Assembly (NCBI GenBank): GCA_027214385.1
Contig: JAPVXR010000003.1
Span: 372,001 to 436,000, forward strand
Source of the DNA: Cryomorphaceae bacterium 1068
GTDB lineage: Bacteria; Bacteroidota; Bacteroidia; Flavobacteriales_D; Cryomorphaceae
Reading direction: 5' to 3'
DNA: 64,000 nt
Positions 327-17,310 of this stretch are shown here, one piece after another. Under the pieces are notes generated by a model, which saw only the letters and a list, made by a program, of their open reading frames with translations, did no database searches and was not told the origin of the DNA. Within the stretch, counting starts at the first letter, position 1. Each line of letters begins with the position of its first letter. Made by a program: the position numbers and the translations under genes.

Positions 327-1139
327 ATGACAAAAACCGTACACGGAATATACATCGGCACCATGGCTACTATAGTGGTGGCGGTGACCGCGTATTTGTC
401 TTACGTTGGCTATTCTTATTATGAATTACCGATTGAGGAGCGTTTTTACCACCCTCAGTACGATTGGTTTAAACCGTCCGGAGCATTTGGCCACTGCCTC
501 GGCATAGTGGGCACATTAATGATTCTCTTCGGCGTGGTCATTTACATTGCTCGAAAGAACCATGGCTTCATGGAGCGATTTATCCGTATCAAATACCTCT
601 TGGAATTCCACATTTTCCTTTGCACGCTAGGACCAATATTAGTGCTGTTTCACACCTCCTTTAAGTTTGGAGGGATTGTGAGCATAGCTTTCTGGAGTAT
701 GGTGGCCGTAGTGGCCAGCGGCGTTGTCGGACGGTTCATTTACAATCAGATCCCGCGCAATATTCAAGGTAAAGAGCTCGGCCGCGACCAACTTTTGGAA
801 ATGCGTGCTGAGATGGTTAAAGGTCTCCGTAAGGCAGAATTGTTTTCGCAAGAAGAGTTGGACGCCTTGTTCAAGATTCCTGAAAAGGGCAATGCCAGAG
901 TCAAGGGTGCCAAGAAAATGCTAAGCGAAAAATCCGCCGCGAGGGATCAGCGAAAAAAAGTCTTAAAAGTGATGAAAGACGAGCGCACGCTCAACCGCAG
1001 GATTCGCAACTTGAACCAAATGCAGAAATTATTTGGCTATTGGCACGTAGCACATAAACCCTTTGCCCTAATAATGCTCGTGGTAGTAATAGTCCACGTC
1101 ATTGTAACCCTAGCCCTAGGCTACAAATGGATTTTCTGA
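327..1139 (+). CDS. Membrane cytochrome b-like protein of the redox cluster
   Basis: A 270-residue integral membrane protein with about five hydrophobic segments (roughly residues 8-30, 53-75, 92-110, 117-140 and 246-266). A basic cytoplasmic loop of about 90 residues lies between the fourth and fifth. Histidines in or next to membrane segments (H56, H95, H109, H243, H257) are candidate heme b ligands. The stretch around residues 95-145 (H-x13-H, then F-G-G, then G-R-F-I-Y) resembles a cytochrome b family seen in Deltaproteobacteria and Bacteroidota. The last 13 bases overlap the ferredoxin-FAD gene, so the two products probably work together, passing electrons between a flavoprotein and quinol or periplasmic cytochromes. 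The electron direction is inferred. Confidence 0.6.
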   Translation: MTKTVHGIYIGTMATIVVAVTAYLSYVGYSYYELPIEERFYHPQYDWFKPSGAFGHCLGIVGTLMILFGVVIYIARKNHGFMERFIRIKYLLEFHIFLCTLGPILVLFHTSFKFGGIVSIAFWSMVAVVASGVVGRFIYNQIPRNIQGKELGRDQLLEMRAEMVKGLRKAELFSQEELDALFKIPEKGNARVKGAKKMLSEKSAARDQRKKVLKVMKDERTLNRRIRNLNQMQKLFGYWHVAHKPFALIMLVVVIVHVIVTLALGYKWIF

Positions 1140-2476
1140 TGGGAGTGCTCTGGGAAGAAATACTGATTTACGGAATTACGGGGCTCTTCTGCATCGCTGC
1201 CGTGGTGTTTTACATCCGCAGCGAAAAGAAAAAGTCAAGCGCCATAGCCGAAAAAGTAGCTACCGCCAAAGAAGAAGGTCGGTTTGAACCCGTATCACTT
1301 CACCCTTACATCGATGTAAACCTTTGCATTGGCAGCGGCGCCTGCATAAAAGCCTGCCCCGAGAAAGATATTCTAGGTATTGTCAACGGTATTGCCACCG
1401 TCATCAATGCTACAAGCTGTGTGGGCCACGGTGCTTGTTTCCACGCCTGCCCTGTAGAAGCCATCAGTCTGCGCATTGGCACCGAGAAACGCGGGGTAGA
1501 CTTACCTCACGTAAAGCCCAACTACGAGACCAATGTTCACGGTATTTATATCGCCGGTGAACTCGGAGGCATGGGGCTTATAAAGAACAGTGCCGAGCAA
1601 GGAAAGCAAGCCATCGACAGTATCATGAAAAGCAAAAAGGTCGGAAAGGAAGGTATTCTCGACGTAGCCATTATCGGCGCAGGGCCTGCCGGTATCACTG
1701 CGGCGCTTAGCGCAAAGAAGAACAAACTGAATTTTAAGGTACTCGAGCAAGACTCACTCGGTGGTACCGTTTTTACCTTTCCTCGTGATAAGGTTGTGAT
1801 GACCCAGCCAATGGATCTGCCATTACACGGCAAAATCAAACTTCGCGATACCAGTAAACAAGAATTGCTGGGAATATGGCAAGGTGTGCTGAAAGAGAAC
1901 AACATCATCATAAAGGAGCACGCAAAAGTTGAGGAGGTTGAACCCTTAGAAAATGGGGATTTCAGATTAAAGATTGCCAACGGCGAGGAAGTCATCGCGC
2001 AAAACGTATTAATAGCCATAGGTCGTCGGGGTTCACCGCGCAAGCTGAATGTCCCAGGCGAAGAGTCGACGAAAGTGGCTTACCGCTTGCTCGAGCCCGA
2101 GCGCATCTCAGGAGAAAAGGTATTAGTTGTCGGTGGAGGTGATTCGGCTGTTGAGTCGGCCATGCTGTTGATGGACGATAACGACGTGATCATTTCTTAC
2201 CGTAAGGATCAATTTTCTCGGATCAAGCCCAAAAACCGAGAAAAGATCGATGCCGCCATCGCCGATGGTCACATTGAAGTGATGTACGACTCTAACGTGC
2301 TGGAGATCAAAAATGAAACCGTGACAATGTCATTTAATGATGATCGCCAAGACATAGAAATACCGAATAATCGCGTTTACATATTTGCGGGAGGTGAGCT
2401 GCCGATTCAGTTTTTGAAGAGTGCAGGAATCGAAGTGGAGAAGAAGTTTGGGAAAATAGTTAAGAAATATCGTTAG
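1127..2476 (+). CDS. Membrane-anchored ferredoxin/FAD-NAD(P) oxidoreductase
   Basis: 449 residues. An N-terminal transmembrane helix (about 12-30) is followed by a double iron-sulfur domain (C67, C73, C77 and C98, C104, C108). A thioredoxin-reductase-like flavoprotein follows, with an FAD-binding G-A-G-P-A-G at 184-189 and a second Rossmann motif G-G-G-D-S-A at 336-341. There is no CxxC redox pair in the flavoprotein part, so it is not a disulfide reductase. In both iron-sulfur motifs the usual second cysteine is replaced (S70 and H101). The start overlaps the cytochrome b gene by 13 bases; an ATG at 1139 is an alternative. The likely role is electron transfer between NAD(P)H and the membrane cytochrome b. 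The substrate is unknown. Confidence 0.7.
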   Translation: MDFLMGVLWEEILIYGITGLFCIAAVVFYIRSEKKKSSAIAEKVATAKEEGRFEPVSLHPYIDVNLCIGSGACIKACPEKDILGIVNGIATVINATSCVGHGACFHACPVEAISLRIGTEKRGVDLPHVKPNYETNVHGIYIAGELGGMGLIKNSAEQGKQAIDSIMKSKKVGKEGILDVAIIGAGPAGITAALSAKKNKLNFKVLEQDSLGGTVFTFPRDKVVMTQPMDLPLHGKIKLRDTSKQELLGIWQGVLKENNIIIKEHAKVEEVEPLENGDFRLKIANGEEVIAQNVLIAIGRRGSPRKLNVPGEESTKVAYRLLEPERISGEKVLVVGGGDSAVESAMLLMDDNDVIISYRKDQFSRIKPKNREKIDAAIADGHIEVMYDSNVLEIKNETVTMSFNDDRQDIEIPNNRVYIFAGGELPIQFLKSAGIEVEKKFGKIVKKYR

Positions 2477-2482
2477 CCCTTG

Positions 2483-4081
2483 ATGAAGAACATCTTCATA
2501 TCAGTTTGTTGTGTGTTAGTGGCCCACCTTGCAGTGGCGCAACTTTCACCGGGCGATCTGTCGGAGGCACACAAGCACCTCGAGGGAATTAGCAACTGCA
2601 CGGAGTGCCACTCCATCGGCAAAAAGGTGCCCGATCAAAAATGCCTCGACTGCCACAAAGAAGTTCAAACGCTGATCTCCGCAGACCGCGGCTATCATGC
2701 GTCGAAAGAAGTGCAGGCTAAAACTTGTATCGATTGCCACAGCGAACACCACGGCCGTAAGTTCGAAATGGATCGATTTGACCAAGACGCTTTTGACCAC
2801 CAGCTCACGGGTTATCTGCTCGAAGGCAAACACGAAGTGATCGACTGTCGCGATTGCCATAAGCCTGATAACATTACCATTGCCGATTTGCGGAAGCGCG
2901 ATGGCACTTTTTTAGGACTCGAGAAGGCCTGTTTGAATTGCCACGACGATTTTCACCAAGGTACCCTCGAAAAAGATTGTGCTCAATGTCACGACTTCGA
3001 TAAATGGCGGCCTGCATCAGGATTTGACCACGATCAGGCAGACTTTAAGCTAAAAGGGGCTCACCGCGAAGTAGATTGCATAGAATGTCACAAGGAAACA
3101 ACCCGCAACGGAAAGGAATTCCAAGAGTTCACGGATCTGGAATTCGCCAATTGCACCGACTGTCATAACGATCCGCACGACGGTAGTTTCGGTGCCAAAT
3201 GCACCGATTGCCATGGCGAAAACGACTGGCATGTGCTTAAATCGGGGATTAAGTTTGACCACAACCTCACCGATTACCCTCTGGAAGGAATGCATGTCAG
3301 TTTAGATTGCCGTAAGTGCCACACATCGGGCTCATACACGAAGAACATTGATCACAGCAAGTGCAAGAGTTGCCACAAAGATTATCACCGTGGACAATTG
3401 ACGGATGACAATCCCACTGCCGATTGTCAAGACTGCCATACACTGGAATCTCCGTTTTCATATACCCTTTACGGCCTCTCTGAGCACCAAGAATCTTCTT
3501 TTCTTCTGGAAGGTGCACACATTGCGACCCCTTGCTTTGCCTGCCATGTGAGCGAAGACCGATGGGAATTTGAAGGAATTGGCGAAAGCTGCGTCGATTG
3601 CCACGACGATATACACGATGGAGTTATCAGCGAGAAGTATTACCCTGATGATGACTGTACCCAATGCCACAATTCGGACACGTGGAAAGAAGTAATCTTT
3701 GATCACGGCACAACGAATTACGAGTTGGAGGGCAGGCACAACGAGATTTCCTGCCGCGCGTGTCACCTCGATTTTTCCGAATCAGGAGAGCTGTTAAATC
3801 AAGAGTTTAGTGGATTGGATAATGCATGCATCACTTGCCACGAAAACGTGCACGGTTCGCAGTTCGAAGTGGATGGTGTAACCGATTGCACGCGTTGCCA
3901 TACGGTAGCAAAAACGTGGAACGCTGATGGATTCGATCACAGCAGTACGCGTTTCCCCTTGGAAGGAAAGCATCTTGAAATTGACTGTAAGGCTTGCCAC
4001 AAGGCAAAAATATTTGAAGACAATGTAGAGCGAACTGATTATAAGATTGAAAAATTTGAATGTATAGACTGTCATTCATAA
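2483..4081 (+). CDS. Secreted 20-heme c-type cytochrome
   Basis: About 532 residues with a signal peptide (hydrophobic stretch ending A-V-A-Q near residue 20) and twenty CxxCH heme-binding motifs spread to the last residues (C-I-D-C-H-S then stop). Six of the motifs sit in a recurring unit of the form F-D-H, then L-E-G-x-H, then CxxCH. This repeat is typical of very large multiheme cytochromes of anaerobic respirers. The ATG at 2483 is preferred to the TTG at 2480. It lies 6 bases after the flavoprotein gene and its 3' end overlaps the next start by 22 bases. Probable role: a periplasmic or surface electron wire fed by the upstream cytochrome b. Confidence 0.85.
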   Translation: MKNIFISVCCVLVAHLAVAQLSPGDLSEAHKHLEGISNCTECHSIGKKVPDQKCLDCHKEVQTLISADRGYHASKEVQAKTCIDCHSEHHGRKFEMDRFDQDAFDHQLTGYLLEGKHEVIDCRDCHKPDNITIADLRKRDGTFLGLEKACLNCHDDFHQGTLEKDCAQCHDFDKWRPASGFDHDQADFKLKGAHREVDCIECHKETTRNGKEFQEFTDLEFANCTDCHNDPHDGSFGAKCTDCHGENDWHVLKSGIKFDHNLTDYPLEGMHVSLDCRKCHTSGSYTKNIDHSKCKSCHKDYHRGQLTDDNPTADCQDCHTLESPFSYTLYGLSEHQESSFLLEGAHIATPCFACHVSEDRWEFEGIGESCVDCHDDIHDGVISEKYYPDDDCTQCHNSDTWKEVIFDHGTTNYELEGRHNEISCRACHLDFSESGELLNQEFSGLDNACITCHENVHGSQFEVDGVTDCTRCHTVAKTWNADGFDHSSTRFPLEGKHLEIDCKACHKAKIFEDNVERTDYKIEKFECIDCHS

Positions 4082-4248
4082 TCGTGCTCCTACTGGTTTA
4101 TGTAGGTTCGGCATCGGCGCAAAATCCGCATGGTGAAGGGATGATTTTGGAATGTAAAGACTGCCATGCGACGCCTGAGAATTATGGTTTTTTAGTTGTA
4201 TTGATTGTCATCCAACCGGCTCAGATTAGTCTAAATGAAAATGAATGA
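4060..4248 (+). pseudogene. Collapsed, frameshifted copy of the 19-heme cytochrome
   Basis: The start overlaps the last heme motif of the 20-heme gene. The first 36 codons (signal peptide, then N-P-H-G and one C-K-D-C-H) match the start of the 19-heme cytochrome at 10018. The middle of the gene is missing. After codon 43 the open frame turns to unrelated residues (L-V-V-L-I-V-I). One extra T in the T6 run near 4187-4192 would instead give F-F-S-C-I-D-C-H-P-T-G-S-D and a stop, matching the C-terminal part of the 19-heme protein. It is therefore an internally deleted paralogue with a one-base frameshift, either a pseudogene or a two-heme mini-cytochrome with a sequencing error. Confidence 0.7.
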
Positions 4249-5882
4249 AGCGAATAGGTCTTAACGAACACTGGATTCGGATAGCAACATTGCTGACCAC
4301 AGTTTTGATGTTTCCTAGTGCGGAATTGATCGCACAGGAGGAAGCGCTTTATGGTACCGTGAGTTTCATTACTTCACAAAATGTCTATTTGCGCTTTGAC
4401 AATACAGACCTACTTCAACTCAACGACACCATCTATCAAAATGTAGGAGGAAAGAATCAGCCTTGCCTCGTACTAAAGCAGAAATCATCTGTTTCTTGCA
4501 TTGCTGAGCCTATTTCAGACTGTAAATTTGAAAAAGGCGATAAAGTGGTGTATTTCTATACTCCTTCCGTGAAGAAGGACGATAAAGAAGAAATCGAGCA
4601 AGCCTCGGACTTTGTCAAAGATTCTCTAGCAGTGGATACGAACTCCGTGAAGGTGAATGCCCCTCCTAAAAAAGTCCTTACAGATCATATCGACGGGCGA
4701 ATTTCTTTGGCAAACAATACTACTGCGGGAAACGGCGATCTCAATAGCCGCACGTTGGGTCGACTAGCTCTGGATGCAGAAAATATCGGCGGATCGAAGT
4801 TTTCGTTTTACAGCTATTCACGCTTTCGCTACAATAAAATTGAACGCAACGGCCTCCGGAGTAATGACAGCCGTATGAGTATTTACGAGTTGGCCCTGCA
4901 GTACGATGCTGACTCCAGTCTGACGGTAAGTATCGGTAGACAGATCAATAACCGAATGTTATCGGTAGGTGCAATGGATGGCCTGAACGCAGAAAAGCGA
5001 TTTCGCAACTCCTATGTCGGCGCAGTGGTAGGTTCCCGAACGGATCCCAGGACCTATGGCGTCAACCCGGACTTATTTCAATACGGTGCATACGTCGGCC
5101 TCTACCACGACAAGAAAAAGATAAGTAGCACAACCTTCGGAGTAATCGACCAACGCAACACGGGAGCCACCGACCGTCGCTATGTTTTTGCCCAGCACCG
5201 CAACCGAATTGGCGATAATATCAATTTATTTGCTACCGCTGAGATGGACATTTACAAAACAGACGTTATCGGTAACGAGGAAAGCGGAGTTAGACCTACC
5301 TCTTTTTACGTCATGGCCAATTACAGGGTATCACGCAAACTGCGTATTACAGCTTCTTACGATATGCGTCGAAACCGAATCTTGTACGCATCCTATTCTG
5401 AAAGCCTCAACCGCCTGATCACTAATGACCCGTATCGAAATGGTTATCGGCTTCGAGTGAATTACAATCTTTCTCGCAGCATTTATACAGGAGCAGGTTT
5501 TAGTCAGCGCACACAAAGCGACAACCACAACACTTTTACCAGCATCAACGTGTTTTTAAGCTTTGCAAGAATTCCAATCATTGGTGGACGCTGGTCGAAT
5601 GTTTTTACCACAAATCAGAACACTTACTACACATACAACTCATTTTCTACTCGGTATACCCGGGATTTTTTCAAAGGGAAACTATCGGTATCCCCTAACG
5701 CCAGACTTGTCTCTTACAACTACATCAACTTCGATGGGGCTGCCTTCAATCAGACATACCTCTCTCTGGATTTGGATTACGACATTGCGAAAAACCTGAG
5801 TATCGGAGCTGATTACGAATATTCGCAAAGAGGCGATTTTATATACCATCGATTCAACACAAACTTGATTAAGAGATTCTAA
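4245..5882 (+). CDS. Outer-membrane beta-barrel protein of the cytochrome cluster
   Basis: 545 residues. A signal peptide (ending near A-E-L-I-A-Q, residue 31) is followed by a small soluble N-terminal part of about 100 residues, a charged linker, and from about residue 150 onward alternating amphipathic strands rich in Y, R, N and S. The chain ends in phenylalanine (K-R-F), as outer-membrane barrels usually do. I recognise no specific family. Its place between multiheme cytochromes suggests a porin that houses or supports a cytochrome, comparable in role (not shown in sequence) to MtrB-type proteins. It overlaps the broken mini-cytochrome by 4 bases (ATGA) and precedes the OB-fold lipoprotein by 2 bases. 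Confidence 0.65.
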   Translation: MKRIGLNEHWIRIATLLTTVLMFPSAELIAQEEALYGTVSFITSQNVYLRFDNTDLLQLNDTIYQNVGGKNQPCLVLKQKSSVSCIAEPISDCKFEKGDKVVYFYTPSVKKDDKEEIEQASDFVKDSLAVDTNSVKVNAPPKKVLTDHIDGRISLANNTTAGNGDLNSRTLGRLALDAENIGGSKFSFYSYSRFRYNKIERNGLRSNDSRMSIYELALQYDADSSLTVSIGRQINNRMLSVGAMDGLNAEKRFRNSYVGAVVGSRTDPRTYGVNPDLFQYGAYVGLYHDKKKISSTTFGVIDQRNTGATDRRYVFAQHRNRIGDNINLFATAEMDIYKTDVIGNEESGVRPTSFYVMANYRVSRKLRITASYDMRRNRILYASYSESLNRLITNDPYRNGYRLRVNYNLSRSIYTGAGFSQRTQSDNHNTFTSINVFLSFARIPIIGGRWSNVFTTNQNTYYTYNSFSTRYTRDFFKGKLSVSPNARLVSYNYINFDGAAFNQTYLSLDLDYDIAKNLSIGADYEYSQRGDFIYHRFNTNLIKRF

Positions 5883-5884
5883 TA

Positions 5885-6658
5885 ATGAAACACACTTCAC
5901 TCATTCGTCATTCTTTCATTCTCCTGATGTTTTTAGCTGCTTGCTCGGGGGAACAAAGGGTAGAACCAGAAAACAAAAGTAGCAGCGGATCTTCATCGAC
6001 CGGCATCTTTGGTGACTCTCCCGGAAATGGAGCCATCACACCTGATGAATTGTCCAATAACAACATCCACGAGGTAGAGATCGTGGAAGTTTTGAAAACC
6101 TCGAAGTACTCCTACTTGCGCGTGCGGAAAGGCGAAGAAGAACCTTATTGGATCGCATCGATGAAATCAGAATTTCAAGAAGGTCAGAAAATCATTTACG
6201 AAGGAGGCCTTTTAAAGACCAATTTTAAAAGTACGGAATACGACCGCGTCTTTGATAGGCTCTACCTTGTCTCGAAGATCAGACTACTCGACGGGCAGGC
6301 AGTCCCTTTGACCAAGAGCGCTGATGAAGCTCCTAAAACAGTTGGAAATCAATTTAAGAAGCCCGATCAGGAAGATATCGTAGATCTTGCTGAAGTGGTA
6401 AATGATCCCGAGAAATACAAGGACCAAAAGATTAAAGTTTATGGGGAAGTGGTAAAAGTCAACGCCAATATCATGGACCGCAATTGGCTGCACATAAAGG
6501 ATGGGACAGCCGATGAATTCGATTTTGTGCTCACCTCTCAAACATCCGTTCCTGTCGGTCACTCCATGATATTTGAAGGAACCATATCGCTAAGCCGCGA
6601 CTTTGGTGCCGGCTATGTTTACGACCTCATCATGGAAAACGCTCAACCGCAACCCTAA
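5885..6658 (+). CDS. Lipoprotein with two OB-fold-like domains
   Basis: 257 residues with a lipobox L-A-A-C (C20) after a short hydrophobic signal. A first domain at about 58-137 (V-E-I-V-E-V, Y-L-R-V-R-K-G, P-Y-W-I-A, Y-D-R-V-F-D-R-L-Y) resembles small periplasmic proteins often coded beside nitrite-reductase or multiheme cytochrome genes, sometimes labelled NrfJ-like. A second domain at about 164-252 has an OB-fold pattern (K-V-Y-G-E-V-V, then R-N-W-L-H-I-K-D-G). It lies directly before the ResB-CcsA gene. A role in cytochrome maturation or scaffolding is inferred from position. Confidence 0.55.
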   Translation: MKHTSLIRHSFILLMFLAACSGEQRVEPENKSSSGSSSTGIFGDSPGNGAITPDELSNNNIHEVEIVEVLKTSKYSYLRVRKGEEEPYWIASMKSEFQEGQKIIYEGGLLKTNFKSTEYDRVFDRLYLVSKIRLLDGQAVPLTKSADEAPKTVGNQFKKPDQEDIVDLAEVVNDPEKYKDQKIKVYGEVVKVNANIMDRNWLHIKDGTADEFDFVLTSQTSVPVGHSMIFEGTISLSRDFGAGYVYDLIMENAQPQP

Positions 6659-9600
6659 ATGGCAAAAGCAAAAAGTTCCTTTTCCAAAATTTTGTTGACG
6701 CTCTTCAACACAAAGGCTGCGGGAGCCTATCTCATTATTTTTGCAGCAGCTATAGGAACGGCCACCTTTATCGAAAACGACTTTGGCACTTCTGCTGCAC
6801 AAAAACTGATTTATCAATCTACGTGGTTTGAGGTTTTGTTGGTGTTGTTCTGCATTACCCTAATCGTCAATGTGATTCAATTCAGGTTCGTTCAAAGACG
6901 CAAATGGGCTTTGTTGATATTCCATTCGGCTATGGTTGTGATCATTATTGGAGCCGGTATCACGAGGTATTTCGGTTATGAGGGTGTGATGCACATTCGA
7001 GAGACCGAGTCCTCCAATGTGATCTATTCAAATGACACCTACCTGAATTACAAGGCTCAATACAAAGGGCAGGATTTTCAATTTTATGAATCTGTCCTTT
7101 TCGCGTCTATAGGTGACAATGAAATGGATGAAACTTACCTCGTCGGAGACCAGAAGGTAAACGTAGTCGTAAGAGAAGTGATTCCCAATCCCGTTCAGTC
7201 AATGGTGTCTGACCCGAAAGGGCCGGCAACCTTGAAGGTAGTTTTCGGGAGTGAGATGGGCCGCGAGGAATACTTTTTACATCCGGGCGACAAACAACAG
7301 CTGCAAGGAGTGAAATTCAACTTTACGGAAGAAGACATTCCCGGTGCTGTTAATATTCGATTGATTGATGGTCAACTCTCTTTACAAACTGACCGCGATT
7401 TGGTGCAGATGGTTATGGCAGATCGCAGCGTTGATACACTTGCGGCCTTCGTCCGCCATCCGCTTAAACTGAGGTCGCTTTATAACAATGGTTCTCAAGC
7501 TTTCGTATTCGGCGATTTTCTGCCCGCGGCGAAGGTTCAAATGAAAGCGGGAGACCAAAAGATCGAAAACTCGAGCACGATAGCCATTTTATTGAAAGTA
7601 TCGATTGGCGATCAAAACTTTGAGCGTTACGTAATGGGATCAAAGGGAACACTCGGTCGACCGGAAGTATTTGCCGGTGAAGGCTTGCTTCTATCGGTTT
7701 CTTATGGCTCCAGGATAATCGAGCTGCCGTTTAGTATTTATTTAAACGACTTCATCATTGATCGCTACCCCGGAACCAATAGCCCTGCTTCCTTTGCATC
7801 AGAAGTCACACTGACAGATTCTCGCGCCGGTCTTGAGGAGGATTACCGTATTTACATGAATAATGTCTTGGACTATGCGGGCTATCGCTTCTTTCAATCA
7901 TCTTACGACCGCGATGAGCTAGGCTCCTACCTGAGTGTAAACTACGACGCGCCCGGAACGGTGGTGACCTACATTGGATACATCCTACTGACGCTTGGCT
8001 TGGTGCTGGTATTCTTCAGCAAAAACACGCGTTTTCATCAATTAACGCAAAATATTAAGAAACTAAGAGGTGCTGCCGTTTTACTTCCACTGTTCCTTTT
8101 CATGGGTCTGACTTCTGCAGATTTAAACGCTCAACAAGCAGTTGCGCCTCAATTGAAGGTCGTTGACGCCAGTCATGCAGAATTGGCAAGTCGAATTGTG
8201 GTGCAAGACTTTCGAGGCAGGATGAAGCCTTTGCATACGCTTAACCGTGAGCTGCTCAGAAAAATTTCAGGAAGTGAAAGTTACAGGGGCTTTAACGCCG
8301 ATCAAGTGGTTCTGTCGATGTATGCCGACAAAACATCTTGGTATGCCGTACCTCTAATTTCAATAGGTGCCCACAATGGAGTGAGTGAATTGATCGGTAT
8401 AAAAGACGGAGAGAAGGCAGCTTACCGCGATTTCTTTAGTCGGGATGGCAAGTATAAGCTGGGAAATGCAGTCCAAGAAGCAAACAATACGAAACCCGCG
8501 GAGCGCGGGATATTTGAAAAACAAATCATAAAGGTTGACGAGCGATTGAATATTGTCACCATGGTTTTTTCAGGTAGCTTCTTTCGAGTCATCCCGTTGG
8601 AAAATGATCCCAATAACACGTGGGTATCAGAACGCTTCCAGGGCCATCAAGAACAGGATCGTTCCGTAGCAACCAAATTCTTTAAAGAATACCGTCAATC
8701 CCTGCATTCGGCTCTTCATGAAGGCAATTACAACTATCCCAATCAGATCCTTGCAGAATTGAAAGATTATCAAAACACCTATGGTAAAGCCGTAATACCT
8801 TCATCTGCAAAATTGAAAACAGAGATCATCCTGAATAAATCGAAGGTCTTTAATCGCCTAGCGCTTTATTACTTTTCTCTGGGTCTCCTATTCCTCGTAT
8901 TGCTTTTTTACACGGTTTTCCGTCCGAACTCGGGCATTTCACGCATGCAGAATATTTTCCTCGCGCTGGTGGTCATTGGTTTTGTGGCTCACACCGCAGG
9001 ATTAGGCTTGCGCTGGTATGTTTCGGGACGAGCACCGTGGAGCAACGGATACGAGTCCATGATCTACATTGGCTGGACGGCCACCTTGGCAGGATTGTTA
9101 TTCACCCGACGTTCATTGGGCGGAATGGCAGCTACCTTGGTGCTGTCAGGAACTGTTTTGCTAATAGCGCTTTTAAGTTACCTCGACCCAGAAATCACCC
9201 CATTGGTTCCCGTTCTACGCTCGTACTGGCTTACCATTCACGTGAGCCTGGAGGCGGGTAGCTATGGGTTCCTCATGCTCGGAGCCATTATCGGATTGAT
9301 CAACCTGATGCTTTACGCGGTAATGCGTAAAGCCAGCAAAAAGCGAATACTTCGCATGATTAAAGAAATGTCTTATATCAGCGAAATGACCCTGATCGGA
9401 GGCATTGTAATGCTTAGTGTGGGAACTTATCTCGGTGGAGTGTGGGCCAACGAATCATGGGGACGCTATTGGGGCTGGGACGCCAAAGAAACCTGGGCTC
9501 TCGTTTCGATTCTGGTCTATGCATTCATTTTGCACATGCGGCTGATTCCCGGATTGAAGAGTCTTTTCGCTTATAATTTCGCCACGCTTTTCGGTTTGTC

Positions 9601-9766
9601 CTCGGTCATTATGACCTACTTCGGGGTAAACTACTACCTCTCGGGATTGCACTCGTATGCCGCGGGAGATCCCGTTCCGATTCCCGACTGGGTATACTTA
9701 GCCGTAACGATCGTGGCGGTAATTAGCGCTTTCGCCTATTGGCGCAAAAAAGCTGTTGGGGCATGA
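6659..9766 (+). CDS. Fused ResB-CcsA cytochrome c maturation protein (system II)
   Basis: 1035 residues. The N-terminal half has transmembrane segments near 15-35, 55-75 and 85-105, a large periplasmic region (about 110-430) and a further helix, as in ResB/Ccs1. The C-terminal part from about residue 735 is a multi-helix CcsA unit with the tryptophan-rich heme-handling motif W-G-R-Y-W-G-W-D-A-K-E-T-W starting near residue 936, plus histidines in T-I-H-V-S-L and I-L-H-M-R-L. System II proteins attach heme to CxxCH motifs, so this gene serves the neighbouring cytochromes, which together need 39 hemes. The start ATG follows the stop of the lipoprotein directly. Confidence 0.9.
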   Translation: MAKAKSSFSKILLTLFNTKAAGAYLIIFAAAIGTATFIENDFGTSAAQKLIYQSTWFEVLLVLFCITLIVNVIQFRFVQRRKWALLIFHSAMVVIIIGAGITRYFGYEGVMHIRETESSNVIYSNDTYLNYKAQYKGQDFQFYESVLFASIGDNEMDETYLVGDQKVNVVVREVIPNPVQSMVSDPKGPATLKVVFGSEMGREEYFLHPGDKQQLQGVKFNFTEEDIPGAVNIRLIDGQLSLQTDRDLVQMVMADRSVDTLAAFVRHPLKLRSLYNNGSQAFVFGDFLPAAKVQMKAGDQKIENSSTIAILLKVSIGDQNFERYVMGSKGTLGRPEVFAGEGLLLSVSYGSRIIELPFSIYLNDFIIDRYPGTNSPASFASEVTLTDSRAGLEEDYRIYMNNVLDYAGYRFFQSSYDRDELGSYLSVNYDAPGTVVTYIGYILLTLGLVLVFFSKNTRFHQLTQNIKKLRGAAVLLPLFLFMGLTSADLNAQQAVAPQLKVVDASHAELASRIVVQDFRGRMKPLHTLNRELLRKISGSESYRGFNADQVVLSMYADKTSWYAVPLISIGAHNGVSELIGIKDGEKAAYRDFFSRDGKYKLGNAVQEANNTKPAERGIFEKQIIKVDERLNIVTMVFSGSFFRVIPLENDPNNTWVSERFQGHQEQDRSVATKFFKEYRQSLHSALHEGNYNYPNQILAELKDYQNTYGKAVIPSSAKLKTEIILNKSKVFNRLALYYFSLGLLFLVLLFYTVFRPNSGISRMQNIFLALVVIGFVAHTAGLGLRWYVSGRAPWSNGYESMIYIGWTATLAGLLFTRRSLGGMAATLVLSGTVLLIALLSYLDPEITPLVPVLRSYWLTIHVSLEAGSYGFLMLGAIIGLINLMLYAVMRKASKKRILRMIKEMSYISEMTLIGGIVMLSVGTYLGGVWANESWGRYWGWDAKETWALVSILVYAFILHMRLIPGLKSLFAYNFATLFGLSSVIMTYFGVNYYLSGLHSYAAGDPVPIPDWVYLAVTIVAVISAFAYWRKKAVGA

Positions 9767-10035
9767 GGTCTATTGTTCTATTACTAAGAATGAAGGCAGT
9801 ACTTAAAATGTATGCTAATGCAAAGAGAATTGACAGGATTCATTCGGGCTTGAGATTTATCGGGTTCAGGTTTTATTCTCTTCAAAAATTGCCACGAAGA
9901 CATTCACGATGGAATTATCAGTGAGAAATATTACCTTGATGATTGCCGTTTACACCTTTGGTCGAAAAAGTTTGAAAACAACATGGTGCAAATAAATTAC
10001 AAATGTGAAAAATTCGAATGCTAAGACTATCATTC
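9767..10035 (+). pseudogene. Remnant of a second copy of the 20-heme cytochrome gene
   Basis: Within this 250-base stretch after ccsA, 9887-9949 resembles 3596-3658 of the 20-heme gene (both read C-H-x-D-I-H-D-G, then I-S-E-K-Y-Y). 9960-10035 resembles 4003-4083, the end of the same gene. About 345 bases in between are absent. The terminal heme motif is destroyed: TGTATAGACTGTCAT in the intact copy corresponds to TGCTAAGACTATCAT here, giving a stop and a Cys-to-Tyr change. I see no similarity in 9767-9886. The remnant ends inside the start of the 19-heme gene, just as the intact 20-heme gene overlaps the broken copy at 4060. Confidence 0.7.
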
Positions 10036-11472
10036 ATAGCACTCCTAGTTTTAGTGGTCGCAGGTTCTGTTTCGGCGCAGAACCCTCACGGTAATGATTT
10101 TATCGTAGACTGTAAAGACTGCCATAACCCGGGCGGTTGGTCTGTGGATTTAGAGACTATGACCTTTTCACACGACTCGGTTGGTTTTGAGCTGGAAGGT
10201 CGTCACGAAGAAATTACCTGCAAAGACTGCCATACCACCTTGGTATTCGACGAAGTTGGCAATGATTGTGTGGACTGTCACACCGATATCCACAACATGT
10301 CGGTAGGAAATGATTGCGTACGCTGCCACGATTCAGAAAGTTGGTTGGTCAATAACATACCCGAATTGCATGAGCAAAATGGTTTCCCGCTTTTGGGACA
10401 ACACCGGGTAGCCGACTGCACGGACTGCCACCTCGATGAGAGTGAACTCGAATGGAGTCGAATAGGCAACGAATGCGTGTCTTGTCACATGGAAGACTAC
10501 ATGGCTGCTTTGGAGCCCAACCACCAATTGGCGGGATTCTCGACCGAGTGCACCGAATGTCATGCACCCTTGGCACAAGACTGGATGGTCGATGATTTCC
10601 ACGTTTTCTTCCCGCTGGAAGGAGGTCACGATATTGACGACTGTGCCGCATGCCACCTGGACGACAATTACGCCAATACATCACCCGAGTGCGTGTCTTG
10701 CCACCAAGATGACTTTGACGCTACCTCTGAGCCCAATCATCAAGATGCCGGTTTCTCAACTGACTGCGCGCAATGCCATGATCCCTTTACACCGGGTTGG
10801 GGCGGAACCGGTGATTTTCATATGTTCTTTCCGCTCGAAGGGGGCCACGATATCCAGGATTGCAATGAATGCCACGAGGGTACTGACTATGCTGCGGCCT
10901 CACCGGAATGTGTATCATGCCACCTTGACGATTTTCAATCCACCGACGAACCTGACCATGAAGCTGCAGGTTTCTCAACGGATTGTCTCGAATGCCACAG
11001 CCCGACCGCTGAGAACTGGGGATCTGAAAGCTTCCACTTATTCTTCCCGCTAGAAGGAGGACACGATATTCAGGATTGCAATCAATGTCACGATGGAAAT
11101 GATTATGCTGCGGCTTCGCCGGAATGCATCTCGTGTCACGAGGACGACTTTAACAATGTAGATTCTCCGGATCACATAGATGCGGGTTTCGGCACAAACT
11201 GCCTCGAGTGCCACACCACCAATAATTGGGAGTCGGCTATTTTCGACCAACACGATGGGATGTACTTCCCTATTTTCTCCGGGAAACACGATGAAGAATG
11301 GAACACCTGCGACGAATGCCACACCACACCTGGCAATTACAGTCTTTTCAGCTGCATCCAATGCCACGAACACGATAACCCGGGCGACTTAGCGGATGAT
11401 CACGATGAAGTGTCCGGCTATGTCTACGAAAGTAACGCTTGTTACAGCTGTCACCCGAACGGATCAGAATAA
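10018..11472 (+). CDS. Secreted 19-heme c-type cytochrome with tandem tri-heme repeats
   Basis: 484 residues with a signal peptide (ending S-V-S-A-Q near residue 21) and nineteen CxxCH motifs. The middle is built from four tandem units of 72-75 residues (starting near 10384, 10609, 10828 and 11044). Each has a F-P-L-x-G-x-H entry, then three heme motifs, the second usually E-C-V-S-C-H. The protein is rich in Asp and Glu and therefore very acidic. A location in the periplasm or at the cell surface is expected; no sorting domain is visible. It shares its N-terminus with the broken gene at 4060. Confidence 0.85.
   Translation: MLRLSFIALLVLVVAGSVSAQNPHGNDFIVDCKDCHNPGGWSVDLETMTFSHDSVGFELEGRHEEITCKDCHTTLVFDEVGNDCVDCHTDIHNMSVGNDCVRCHDSESWLVNNIPELHEQNGFPLLGQHRVADCTDCHLDESELEWSRIGNECVSCHMEDYMAALEPNHQLAGFSTECTECHAPLAQDWMVDDFHVFFPLEGGHDIDDCAACHLDDNYANTSPECVSCHQDDFDATSEPNHQDAGFSTDCAQCHDPFTPGWGGTGDFHMFFPLEGGHDIQDCNECHEGTDYAAASPECVSCHLDDFQSTDEPDHEAAGFSTDCLECHSPTAENWGSESFHLFFPLEGGHDIQDCNQCHDGNDYAAASPECISCHEDDFNNVDSPDHIDAGFGTNCLECHTTNNWESAIFDQHDGMYFPIFSGKHDEEWNTCDECHTTPGNYSLFSCIQCHEHDNPGDLADDHDEVSGYVYESNACYSCHPNGSE
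10384..11265 (+). repeat. Four tandem tri-heme coding repeats
   Basis: Within the 19-heme gene the F-P-L entry motif recurs at 10384, 10609, 10828 and 11044, with a fifth partial entry (F-P-I-F-S-G-K-H) at 11266. The spacing is 225, 219, 216 and 222 bases. Units 2 to 4 are most alike (L-E-G-G-H-D-I, S-P-E-C, D-A-G-F or A-A-G-F). This suggests growth of the cytochrome by recent in-frame duplication of a three-heme block. Confidence 0.75.
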
Positions 11473-14711: not shown

Positions 14712-14742
14712 TTTGTTATGAATGTGTAATGCGTTATTTTTA
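14712..14742 (+). promoter_or_regulatory. Promoter of the paa operon
   Basis: TTTG at 14712-14715 and TATTTTTA at 14735-14742 are spaced by 19 bases, matching the Bacteroidota TTTG / TAnnTTTG promoter with one mismatch. The second box lies 29 bases before the ATG of paaA. Confidence 0.5.
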
Positions 14743-14763
14743 CGCCACCATCAAACTGATATT

Positions 14764-15708
14764 ATGAATTTAGCAGAACGCGAAGAATTGTTTCAAGAGA
14801 AGATCGACAAAGGGCAGAAGATTGAAGCAAAAGAGTGGATGCCCGAAAACTACCGAAAGCAACTTATCCGGATGATTTCCCAGCACGCCCACAGTGAGAT
14901 TGTGGGGATGCTCCCTGAAGGAAACTGGATAACACGCGCCCCAAGCCTTCGCCGAAAGGCAGTACTACTGGCCAAGGTCCAAGACGAAGCCGGTCATGGC
15001 CTCTACCTATACAGTGCCGCTGAAACGTTGGGAGTGGATCGTCAAACAATGATCGATCAATTGCTCTCGGGAAAAGCAAAGTACTCCAGTATTTTCAACT
15101 ACCCCACCCTTTCCTGGGCCGACATTGGCGCCATCGGTTGGTTGGTAGACGGAGCAGCCATTGTAAACCAGACCATGCTTGCACGAGGTTCCTACGGACC
15201 CTACTCGCGTGCGATGGTTCGTATCTGCAAAGAAGAAAGTTTCCACAACAGACAAGGGTATGAAATCATATACCAACTGGCCAATGGAACAGCAGAGCAG
15301 AAAAAAATGGCTCAAGACGCCTTGAACCGCTGGTGGTGGCCTTCCATTCAAATGCTGGGTCCATCTGATGCACAGTCGAAAAACAGCGCCGAAACCATGA
15401 AGTGGAACATTAAAGTGGAGAGCAATGACACCATTCGTCAGCGCTTCATTGATCGCACGGTTCCACAGGCAGAAGCCGCAGGTTTGACTATTCCCGATCC
15501 AGATTTGAAATTCAATGAGGAAACACAACACTGGGAAATAGGAGAAATCGAATGGGAAGAATTTTTCCAAGTAATAAAAGGAAATGGCCCTTGCAACCAC
15601 AAAAGAATGGAAGCCAGAAAAAAGGCAGAAGGAGAAGGTAAGTGGGTGAGAGATGCCATGAAAGCTTATGCTGAAAAACAAAAAGCACGCAAATCAACTG
15701 CGGCTTAA
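14764..15708 (+). CDS. paaA: Phenylacetyl-CoA 1,2-epoxidase catalytic subunit PaaA
   Basis: 314 residues, the usual length. The ATG at 14764 (M-N-L-A-E-R-E) is chosen over upstream in-frame codons. Diiron ligand motifs are E75-A-G-H78 and E158-S-F-H161, and the R-W-W-W-P stretch is typical of PaaA. With PaaC as structural partner it forms the oxygenase that epoxidises the aromatic ring of phenylacetyl-CoA, the committed step of aerobic phenylacetate breakdown. It is the first gene of paaABCD. Confidence 0.95.
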
Positions 15709-15743
15709 CCAACATACCATCAACTACCTACTACTCTAACACC

Positions 15744-16049
15744 ATGTCTGAAGAACAAACGAATCAAAGCGAACAAGGCATCCTTTGGGAAGTCTTTATT
15801 CAATCAAAACCGGGAATACCACACAAGCACGCAGGAAGCGTTCATGCGCACGATGCAGAAATGGCATTGAAAGCAGCTCGAGACGTCTACACACGTAGAA
15901 GAGAAGGCGTCAGCCTTTGGGTAGTTCCTTCCAACATGATTCACGCCACGACTGAAGAAGAGGCGGAATCATTCTTTGATCCTGCCGATGACAAAGCCTA
16001 TCGACATCCTACTTTCTACACCATTCCTGAAGGAGTGAAATATTTGTAA
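15744..16049 (+). CDS. paaB: Phenylacetyl-CoA epoxidase subunit PaaB
   Basis: 101 residues. The pattern W-E-V-F-I-Q, then G-S-V-H-A-H-D-A-E-M-A-L, then R-R-E-G-V-S-L-W-V is characteristic of PaaB. This small subunit bridges or stabilises the PaaA-PaaC complex. It starts 35 bases after paaA and ends one base before the paaC start. Confidence 0.93.
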   Translation: MSEEQTNQSEQGILWEVFIQSKPGIPHKHAGSVHAHDAEMALKAARDVYTRRREGVSLWVVPSNMIHATTEEEAESFFDPADDKAYRHPTFYTIPEGVKYL

Positions 16050-16050
16050 G

Positions 16051-16812
16051 ATGACTAAAGAAGAAGCTTTATACGAATACCTGATCCGATTGGGCGACAA
16101 CGCCCTGATTTTGGGTCAGCGCTTGGGAGAATGGTGCGGACACGCTCACCAATTGGAAAGCGATATAGCCATGACCAATGTTTCATTGGATTTAATCGGA
16201 CAAGCGCGAATGCTGCTCACCGAAGCGGGAGTTGTAGAAGGAAAAGGCAGAACGGAAGATGATCTCGCTTTTCACAGAAATGAGTTTGATTTCAGAAACA
16301 ACCTTTTGGTAGAAATGGCGAATGGCGATTTCGCACAAACTATCACTCGGCAGTTCTTTTTTGATGGGTTCTACTATCACCTGCTGCAGGCTCTAAAGAC
16401 AAGCAAAAGCGAATTCCTGCAAGCCTTTGCTCTGAAGAGCATTAAAGAAGTGACGTATCATCGGGAGCTGAGCGCCGACTTTGTGGTAAGACTTGGAGAC
16501 GGCACGGAAGTAAGTCATGATAAAATGCAAAATGCCGTTGACCTCTTGTGGGAATACACAGGTGAGCTATTTGAAATGACAGAAGCTGACGAGATTCTGA
16601 TGGCGGAAGGAATGGTTCCCGACCTGAATGAAATAAAAGCGCTTTGGGAAAAAGACATGATTGCCGCATTAGAAAAGGCGACACTGTCTATTCCCGACAC
16701 CAAAGGATATATGGCTTCCGGAAGTCGGAAAGGAAATCACACAGAATACTTGGGGTACATCTTGGCAGAAATGCAATACTACCCACGAATGATGCCCGAC
16801 GCAAAGTGGTAA
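16051..16812 (+). CDS. paaC: Phenylacetyl-CoA epoxidase subunit PaaC
   Basis: 253 residues of the ferritin-like PaaC family: L-G-D-N-A-L-I-L-G-Q-R-L at about 11-22, and a helix with D-L-I-G-Q-A-R. PaaC is the structural subunit paired with PaaA and does not itself hold the working diiron site. It is one base downstream of paaB and three bases upstream of paaD, so translation is probably coupled. Confidence 0.93.
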   Translation: MTKEEALYEYLIRLGDNALILGQRLGEWCGHAHQLESDIAMTNVSLDLIGQARMLLTEAGVVEGKGRTEDDLAFHRNEFDFRNNLLVEMANGDFAQTITRQFFFDGFYYHLLQALKTSKSEFLQAFALKSIKEVTYHRELSADFVVRLGDGTEVSHDKMQNAVDLLWEYTGELFEMTEADEILMAEGMVPDLNEIKALWEKDMIAALEKATLSIPDTKGYMASGSRKGNHTEYLGYILAEMQYYPRMMPDAKW

Positions 16813-16815
16813 TCA

Positions 16816-17310
16816 ATGCCAGTTGAACGAACCATAGAAAATATCTACACACTTCTAGAAGATGTGAAAGATCCTGAAATTCCCGTTCTTTCAGTTCGAG
16901 ATTTAGGAATACTTAGAGATGTTACCATTTCTCCGGAAGGCAAAGTAGCCGTGACCATTACTCCTACTTATTCAGGTTGTCCGGCCATGGATACAATCGA
17001 AAGAGAAGTCAAGGAAAAACTGATCGGAGAAGGACTTGATGTGGAAGTCATTACCAAGATTTCGCCCGCTTGGACTACAGACTGGATGACGGAAGAAGGG
17101 CGACAAAAGCTTGAAGATTATGGCATCGCACCCCCTGCGGAAACTACTGCGGATAAAGCGTCTTTATTCGCTAAAGCAAAAGTAGTGCGCTGTCCGCGCT
17201 GCAAAAGCGAAGAAACGTCATTGATTTCTCAGTTTGGAAGTACGGCGTGTAAGGCGCTTTATCGCTGCGATGATTGCTTAGAGACTTTCGACTATTTCAA
17301 GTGTATTTAA
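16816..17310 (+). CDS. paaD: Phenylacetate degradation protein PaaD
   Basis: 164 residues. An N-terminal MIP18/DUF59-like domain (V-K-D-P-E-I-P at about 16-22, T-P-T-Y-S-G-C-P-A-M) is followed by a C-terminal zinc-ribbon-like part with C-P-R-C and C-D-D-C pairs near 124-158. PaaD is thought to help assemble iron-sulfur or diiron centres of the epoxidase. No paaE reductase follows: a minus-strand gene converges after 16 bases. Confidence 0.93.
   Translation: MPVERTIENIYTLLEDVKDPEIPVLSVRDLGILRDVTISPEGKVAVTITPTYSGCPAMDTIEREVKEKLIGEGLDVEVITKISPAWTTDWMTEEGRQKLEDYGIAPPAETTADKASLFAKAKVVRCPRCKSEETSLISQFGSTACKALYRCDDCLETFDYFKCI

Follow-up and report, generated by a model that had tools for sequence, protein, structure and literature searches.

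Gene content of the cluster

The window analysed here is a stretch of 64,000 nucleotides from Cryomorphaceae bacterium 1068 (GenBank assembly GCA_027214385.1, contig JAPVXR010000003.1, positions 372,001 to 436,000, forward strand). The subject is a cluster of seven genes at positions 327-11472, for which a preliminary description had proposed a trans-envelope electron conduit. All seven open reading frames (ORFs) were confirmed on the plus strand where that description had placed them, with 20 CxxCH motifs in the first cytochrome and 19 in the second (39 in total). The genes are near-contiguous (intergenic gaps, in order: -13, 6, 163, 2, 0 and 251 nt) and are spaced as in an operon. The features are:

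327..1139, plus strand: cytB, a putative membrane cytochrome b with five long helices in the predicted model; HX13H in transmembrane helices (TM) 3 and 5, SGVVG in TM4
1127..2476, plus strand: flavoprotein; single TM helix at the N-terminus, then a dicluster ferredoxin domain and a domain for flavin adenine dinucleotide (FAD) and NAD(P)
2483..4081, plus strand: multiheme cytochrome (MHC) of the 20/23-heme class; 20 CxxCH, 26.6 residues per heme
4245..5882, plus strand: predicted outer-membrane-type beta-barrel; N-terminal beta domain at residues 33-105, 22 predicted strands at 148-544
5885..6658, plus strand: lipoprotein with Cys20; weak matches to GW and CcmE; optional and not confined to the cluster
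6659..9766, plus strand: ResB-CcsA fused System II cytochrome c maturase; WGRYWGWD motif
9887..9946, plus strand: decayed fragment in the gap before the second cytochrome; 80% identity to residues 373-393 of the 20-heme cytochrome
10018..11472, plus strand: second MHC, variable-length class; 19 CxxCH (3k+1), 25.5 residues per heme, triheme repeat

The ORF of the 20-heme cytochrome was listed from a TTG at 2480; an ATG lies at 2483. The arrangement in the window is atypical, the variable MHC being placed after the maturase with a 20-heme-like scrap between the two. The remnant at 9887-9946 may be a trace of a lost or moved copy of a gene like that of the 20-heme cytochrome.

The cytB protein (270 residues, with a loop of ca. 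95 residues after TM4) is called a cytochrome b because helices 3 and 5 each carry an HX13H motif and not because of a family match: no Pfam family was found above its cut-off (best DUF4405, 15.8 bits; cut-off 26.7), and a profile search of PDB sequences found none. His95, His109, His243 and His257 are invariant across 16 aligned sequences. Position -4 is W in TM5 and, in the window protein, L in TM3, where 12 of the 17 sequences compared have W. Taken together with the five long helices of the predicted model (mean predicted local distance difference test (pLDDT) 80.8; range of five models 68.6-80.8), these motifs indicate a putative five-helix cytochrome b of the diheme type.

In the flavoprotein, Pfam matches to Pyr_redox (Pyr_redox_3) and Fer4 were obtained, and the two ferredoxin motifs (within residues 67-108) read CxxSxxCxxxCP and CxxHxxCxxxCP. 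The second Cys of motif two is replaced by His (His101) in 105 of the 105 flavoproteins examined, and that of motif one by Ser in 90 (13 have Cys, one Val and one Ala); an unusual or His-ligated cluster is therefore likely, as judged from these motifs. RSEKKK follows the TM anchor, so that the redox domains should be cytoplasmic by the positive-inside rule. The FAD/NAD(P) part is nearest to YpdA, to thioredoxin-reductase-like proteins and to ferredoxin-NADP reductases of the TrxR type; a pattern SYR...F.R.K, conserved in 93/105 flavoproteins, resembles the NADPH-binding HRRxxxR of thioredoxin reductase. Assignment as the YpdA bacillithiol disulfide reductase was rejected, since this best NCBIfam match gave 157.4 bits (family cut-off 339.9) and the position of the YpdA active-site Cys, which sits in GxGPCG, is Ala in 98/105 flavoproteins and Cys in no match. 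Thioredoxin reductase was rejected because a redox-active CxxC is absent after residue 170; the window protein has no Cys at all past that residue.

Both cytochromes match Pfam Cytochrome_C7 and exceed the cut-off of 30 bits for PF22113 (MtrC/MtrF domain II/IV), with 34.6 and 45.4 bits. By eye, both have a signal-peptide-like N-terminus and the second is without a lipobox. A PDB search with the 20-heme protein found none.

No Pfam or NCBIfam match was found for the barrel. Its predicted model (mean pLDDT 84.5; predicted template modelling score 0.66) comprises a small beta domain and then, from residue 148, 22 strands. The best Foldseek match was the PapC usher. In a second structural comparison a TonB-dependent receptor came first (Z 19.1, root-mean-square deviation (rmsd) 4.8 over 357 residues), level with an Occ-type porin (Z 19.0, rmsd 4.3 over 273 residues). 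These matches show a barrel fold for the model and no function.

The maturase has ResB and Cytochrom_C_asm domains above their Pfam cut-offs and a WWD motif; its TIGR03144 match (170.6 bits) is below the cut-off of 187.6. CcmC-, CcmE- and CcmF/NrfE-like genes are coded on another contig, all below NCBIfam cut-offs. Because of these System I Ccm-like genes, ResB-CcsA looks like an additional maturase, and a second CcsBA as the general maturase of the genome was rejected, the other locus being Ccm-like. The lipoprotein had been described as an OB-fold lipoprotein: the lipoprotein ORF stands, with Cys20 invariant in 30/30 aligned sequences, and the OB-fold is only hinted at by Pfam (GW 22.1 bits, cut-off 21; CcmE 15.3 bits, below its 24.6).

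Conservation, gene order and hosts

A sample of 296 genomes of the phylum was searched. The flavoprotein, matched at 1e-40, was found in 36 genomes (38 matches). The match begins within the first 24 residues, thus including the ferredoxin domain, in 28 of these, and all 28 are among the 30 genomes with a cytB match; in the remaining two cytB genomes the gene is weakly matched or broken, with a short partial match and a stop in G097 and internal stops in G140. In the other eight flavoprotein genomes the match starts only at residue 125 or 126, in frames of ca. 800-910 residues. This 28/28 association bears out the earlier statement that the flavoprotein-cytB pair is the most distinctive part of the set. 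The barrel profile, in a search that scored four first-look candidates per genome, matched 25/296 genomes, every one of them with a cytB match (the barrel of G140 is a remnant); the barrel is thus linked to the cytochromes and does not behave as the unrelated porin that had been considered as a counter-explanation.

Loci were fetched around 30 of the 38 flavoprotein matches, and 26 of these 30 loci hold MHCs; in L050 the flavoprotein lies at a contig end, and L064-L066 are homologues of the FAD part without the cluster. Two gene orders were observed, cytB-flavoprotein-MHC-MHC-barrel and cytB-MHC-MHC-barrel-flavoprotein. In seven loci, all with the first order, a TPR-like protein (by eye) of ca. 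200 residues with an N-terminal hydrophobic segment lies between cytB and the flavoprotein (L038, L040, L042, L045, L046, L047 and L049); it is perhaps an assembly factor.

The cytB profile was also run against one genome each for 84,980 species; at least 531 relatives were confirmed and the best 80 were kept. Of these 80 loci, 79 carry Bacteroidota titles and one (L118) is titled only 'bacterium'; hosts include Maribacter, Arenibacter, Yeosuana, Flagellimonas, Ulvibacter, Marinirhabdus and many Saprospiraceae. Counted where the contig left room, the flavoprotein follows cytB in 76/79 loci, and downstream of cytB lie a 20/23-heme MHC (62/68), a variable MHC (47/50), the barrel (36/40) and the lipoprotein (30/40), with ResB-CcsA somewhere in the locus in 29/40. 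Most loci with room show the gene order cytB-flavoprotein-MHC-variable MHC-barrel. Alignment A5 took 47 of the 80 loci, A3 39 and A4 29. The flanks are not conserved: the commonest other family (ORFs of at least 130 residues, pairs above 90% identity left out) occurs in 4/80 loci. A chance neighbourhood was rejected on these two grounds, the recurring gene order and the rarity of any other family; the gene order that the preliminary description had put forward for checking is conserved. All seven kinds of gene stand together on plasmid pEMTOL02 of Emticicia oligotrophica, and when plasmids were searched with the second cytochrome, Emticicia was the only one found.

The lipoprotein is not specific to the cluster. 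It occurs in 21/296 genomes, ten of which are without cytB, and lies within the cluster only in the window genome and in G134 of those 21. Of 19 copies outside the cluster, 17 were inspected, and no cluster gene was seen among the few ORFs on either side, the neighbours being judged by size and position and not by sequence. A dedicated role in the conduit, as first described, was rejected on both counts, and the lipoprotein is an optional passenger or helper.

A short distance past the cluster, at 14722-17310 of the window, lie genes resembling a phenylacetyl-CoA oxygenase set, presumably paa.

Heme numbers and the triheme length rule

Heme numbers were counted over both data sets, leaving out ORFs with fewer than six CxxCH, ORFs cut by a contig end, ORFs without a profile match, ORFs of the 20-heme class below 500 bits (L038, 14 hemes; L077, 12 hemes) and loci L064-L066 and L151-L155. 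Complete variable MHCs hold 3k+1 hemes in 76/80 cases, from 10 to 73; the exceptions have nine hemes (L061-L063) or 38 (L059), so that the class spans 9-73. In the other class, 83/84 MHCs hold 20 or 23 hemes and one (L043) holds 16. Three long variable MHCs are those of L085 (73 hemes), L132 (67) and L123 (64); exact 40-mer DNA repeats were found in none of these three genes, and the repeats are therefore old or diverged.

Heme spacing has a period of three: over 72 proteins the mean correlation is 0.91 at lag 3, against -0.50 at lag 1 and -0.44 at lag 2. When nearest neighbours were paired by flavoprotein, using only the first complete variable MHC per locus, heme number differed in 27/32 pairs, always by a multiple of three, and even at 97.5% identity it shifted (25 versus 16). 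Neither the related proteins nor the two overlapping counts are independent; the many whole-step changes nevertheless point to a triheme building block in the variable MHCs. In all variable MHCs counted, His residues outside CxxCH are at least as numerous as the hemes, which fits bis-His hemes and would suit an electron wire.

A rough lipobox pattern was found in 24/74 proteins of the 20/23-heme class, 4/70 variable MHCs and 18/34 lipoprotein ORFs; it is a poor test, since only 18 of the 34 lipoprotein ORFs matched.

Likeness to PCC3 and the proposed electron path

PCC3 is a porin-cytochrome type of Proteobacteria described by He et al. 2017 (PMC5566968). PCC3 is described as comprising a porin and two MHCs, one near 21 hemes and one highly variable, with internal repeats and ca. 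26 residues per heme, together with an inner-membrane protein of ca. 300 residues with five TM helices, WX3HX13H on TM3 and TM5 and SGXXG on TM4 (PMC5566968). The window set has a cytB of 270 residues with HX13H twice and SGVVG (TM3 with L, not W), an MHC matching by its count of 20 hemes (20 or 23 in 83/84), a second MHC of 19 hemes in a class of 9-73 (25.5 residues per heme, lag-3 correlation 0.91) and an adjacent barrel. It differs in strand number (22 versus up to 42 predicted in PCC3 porins; PMC5566968), in having both a flavoprotein and a maturase, whereas PCC3 is described as four genes without either (PMC5566968, PMC12442390), and in its Bacteroidota hosts, those reported for PCC3 being Proteobacteria (PMC5566968). 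In Gallionellaceae, periplasmic PCC3 MHCs have 21, 24 and 27 hemes, also steps of three, whereas counts of the extracellular MHCs, such as 10, 11, 12, 26 and 33, break the 3k+1 rule (PMC10734462). By layout, heme density and cytB motifs, compared as described features and not as sequences, the cluster matches the PCC3 kind, and the earlier view that its layout was not a recognised one had to be revised.

Likeness to other systems is looser. The window cytochromes are far below the NCBIfam cut-offs of the Mtr-type families DmsE (60.3 of 192.2) and OmcA/MtrC (17.6 of 209.3). MtrCAB, PioAB and OmbB-OmaB-OmcB combine a barrel and multiheme cytochromes with an inner-membrane electron input; the working parts are alike here, but the inner-membrane part is a cytochrome b and the barrel matches no Pfam or NCBIfam family. 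Geobacter nanowire cytochromes of the GSU1996 type are also chains of triheme c7-like units, with one His-Met heme per domain in GSU1996 (PMC10138318), whereas the window class has at least one spare His per heme, an adjacent barrel and up to 73 hemes. OmbB-like and MtrB-like porin-cytochrome sets are reported from Ignavibacteria (PMC7399161), and a 2024 survey of activated sludge reported undescribed Bacteroidota cytochromes with very many hemes, for which electron transfer was guessed (PMC11495043). No published account of the flavoprotein-cytB-porin cluster or of the 3k+1 rule was found in the texts searched, supplements and subscription papers being outside the scope, and passages of PMC11475568, PMC8446621 and PMC13374861 did not mention the cluster. 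New against this literature are the flavoprotein of NAD(P)H type, the additional maturase, the spread in Bacteroidota and the 3k+1 heme rule of the second cytochrome.

Homologues of cytB are also coded on proteobacterial plasmids (Methylophaga, Acetobacter, Variovorax and Bradyrhizobium BTAi1; profile E 3.8e-17 to 1.2e-21), and a short Legionella anisa ORF gave E 1.7e-11. On these plasmids cytB sits between a reductase and a multiheme cytochrome, two kinds of partner that the window cluster also has; the cytochrome has seven CxxCH and no porin is annotated beside the three genes. The reductase (annotated 2Fe-2S) is of FAD_binding_6/NAD_binding_1/Fer2 type in the three tested, unlike the window flavoprotein. 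On the BTAi1 plasmid (L155, 2484-11130), gnd and zwf adjoin the module, with tal close by. A second, smaller MHC beside a short cytB-like ORF was seen in L045 (3127-4616, 10 CxxCH) and L077 (7410-9022, 12 CxxCH), perhaps a separate module like the proteobacterial ones. Since one cytB family has two different NAD(P)H-type partners, cytB is suggested to take electrons from NAD(P)H.

It could instead be fed by menaquinol, as part of a quinol-linked respiratory branch in which the flavoprotein has another or a regulatory role. CymA-Mtr and like conduits are quinol-fed. Quinone exchange was also proposed by He et al. for the PCC3 inner-membrane protein (PMC5566968). The constant company of full-length flavoprotein and cytB (28/28 genomes) and the fact that this cytB family is paired in Proteobacteria with an NAD(P)H-type reductase of another kind both speak against such a branch, which is considered unlikely.

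The reading preferred here, with a probability of roughly 0.55, is a porin-cytochrome conduit of Bacteroidota, of PCC3 kind, to which a cytoplasmic NAD(P)H flavoprotein is joined and in which flow is outward; it supports the conduit interpretation given earlier. NAD(P)H would reduce the FAD of the membrane-anchored flavoprotein, whose Fe-S clusters would hand electrons to two hemes b of cytB, and these would take them through the inner membrane. The 20-heme cytochrome would bridge the periplasm, and the variable cytochrome, in or beyond the 22-strand barrel and presumably exposed at the surface, would deliver them to an acceptor there. ResB-CcsA would attach the many hemes.

The statement that the set could equally work inward was not upheld, since the flavoprotein and the proteobacterial parallels favour export from NAD(P)H. 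Run inward, the same conduit would take electrons from an external donor (Fe(II), another cell or a cathode) through the variable cytochrome to cytB and the flavoprotein, and on to NAD(P)+ or quinone. By established bioenergetics, electrons leaving NAD(P)H for the outside run downhill in both redox and membrane potential, whereas transfer from a periplasmic cytochrome to NAD(P)+ opposes both. Many of the named hosts, moreover, are marine flavobacteria, which are known as heterotrophs, and both PCC3 clusters of S. lithotrophicus ES-1 were down-regulated on Fe(II) (PMC8788666). On the other side, He et al. drew PCC3 inward, to quinone (PMC5566968), PCC3 is found in some iron oxidisers (PMC5566968, PMC10734462), and one PCC3 copy showed a rise of its inner-membrane gene in Sideroxydans CL21 able to oxidise iron (PMC12442390). 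In principle, both flavoproteins and wires can also run in reverse. Inward flow is judged improbable.

A periplasmic store or sink, with the hemes as a capacitor or feeding periplasmic reductases and the barrel passing only small molecules or a shuttle, is rated slightly lower still. The periplasm can house long multiheme wires (12 hemes in GSU1996, 27 in GSU2210; PMC10138318), the rough lipobox is absent in 66/70 variable MHCs, and proteobacterial modules without an adjoining porin exist; barrel matches, however, are confined to cytB genomes (25/25) and lie mostly beside the variable MHC.

Several findings weigh against the preferred reading. Five of the 30 cytB genomes (G001, G016, G097, G219 and G290) gave no barrel match; the co-occurrence of barrel and cytB is strong but not exhaustive. 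MtrB-type barrels were absent among the structural matches listed, which are generic barrels, and the 22 strands are fewer than the 26 of MtrB. Comparison of the cytB model with solved structures returned unrelated helical proteins and nothing at E <= 0.001. The use of NAD(P)H by the flavoprotein is suggested by its domain type, and two genes of the COX1 family (heme-copper oxidase or nitric oxide reductase) are present in the host, so that an external acceptor is not obviously needed.

The cluster is a real, conserved and widespread candidate conduit that, by its sequence features, would work like PCC3, and it would show, if the preferred reading is true, how systems of the PCC3 type can be fed. 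To earlier reports of many-heme Bacteroidota cytochromes it adds an operon-like set, a candidate electron input and a maturase. Its Bacteroidota hosts are grown as aerobes and are not usually thought electrically active. A wider proposal is offered tentatively, with less confidence than the conduit itself: that a quinone-independent, NAD(P)H-driven export line is common in Bacteroidota, that it includes a ferredoxin domain in which an invariant His replaces a cluster Cys, and that its outer wire evolves fast in whole triheme steps, its reach tuned by repeat number. The triheme rule provides a natural length series of protein wires, and Maribacter, Arenibacter, Ulvibacter, Flagellimonas and Emticicia oligotrophica are named hosts suitable for testing. 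Should the preferred reading be correct, a dedicated outlet for electrons exists in a large group of Bacteroidota.

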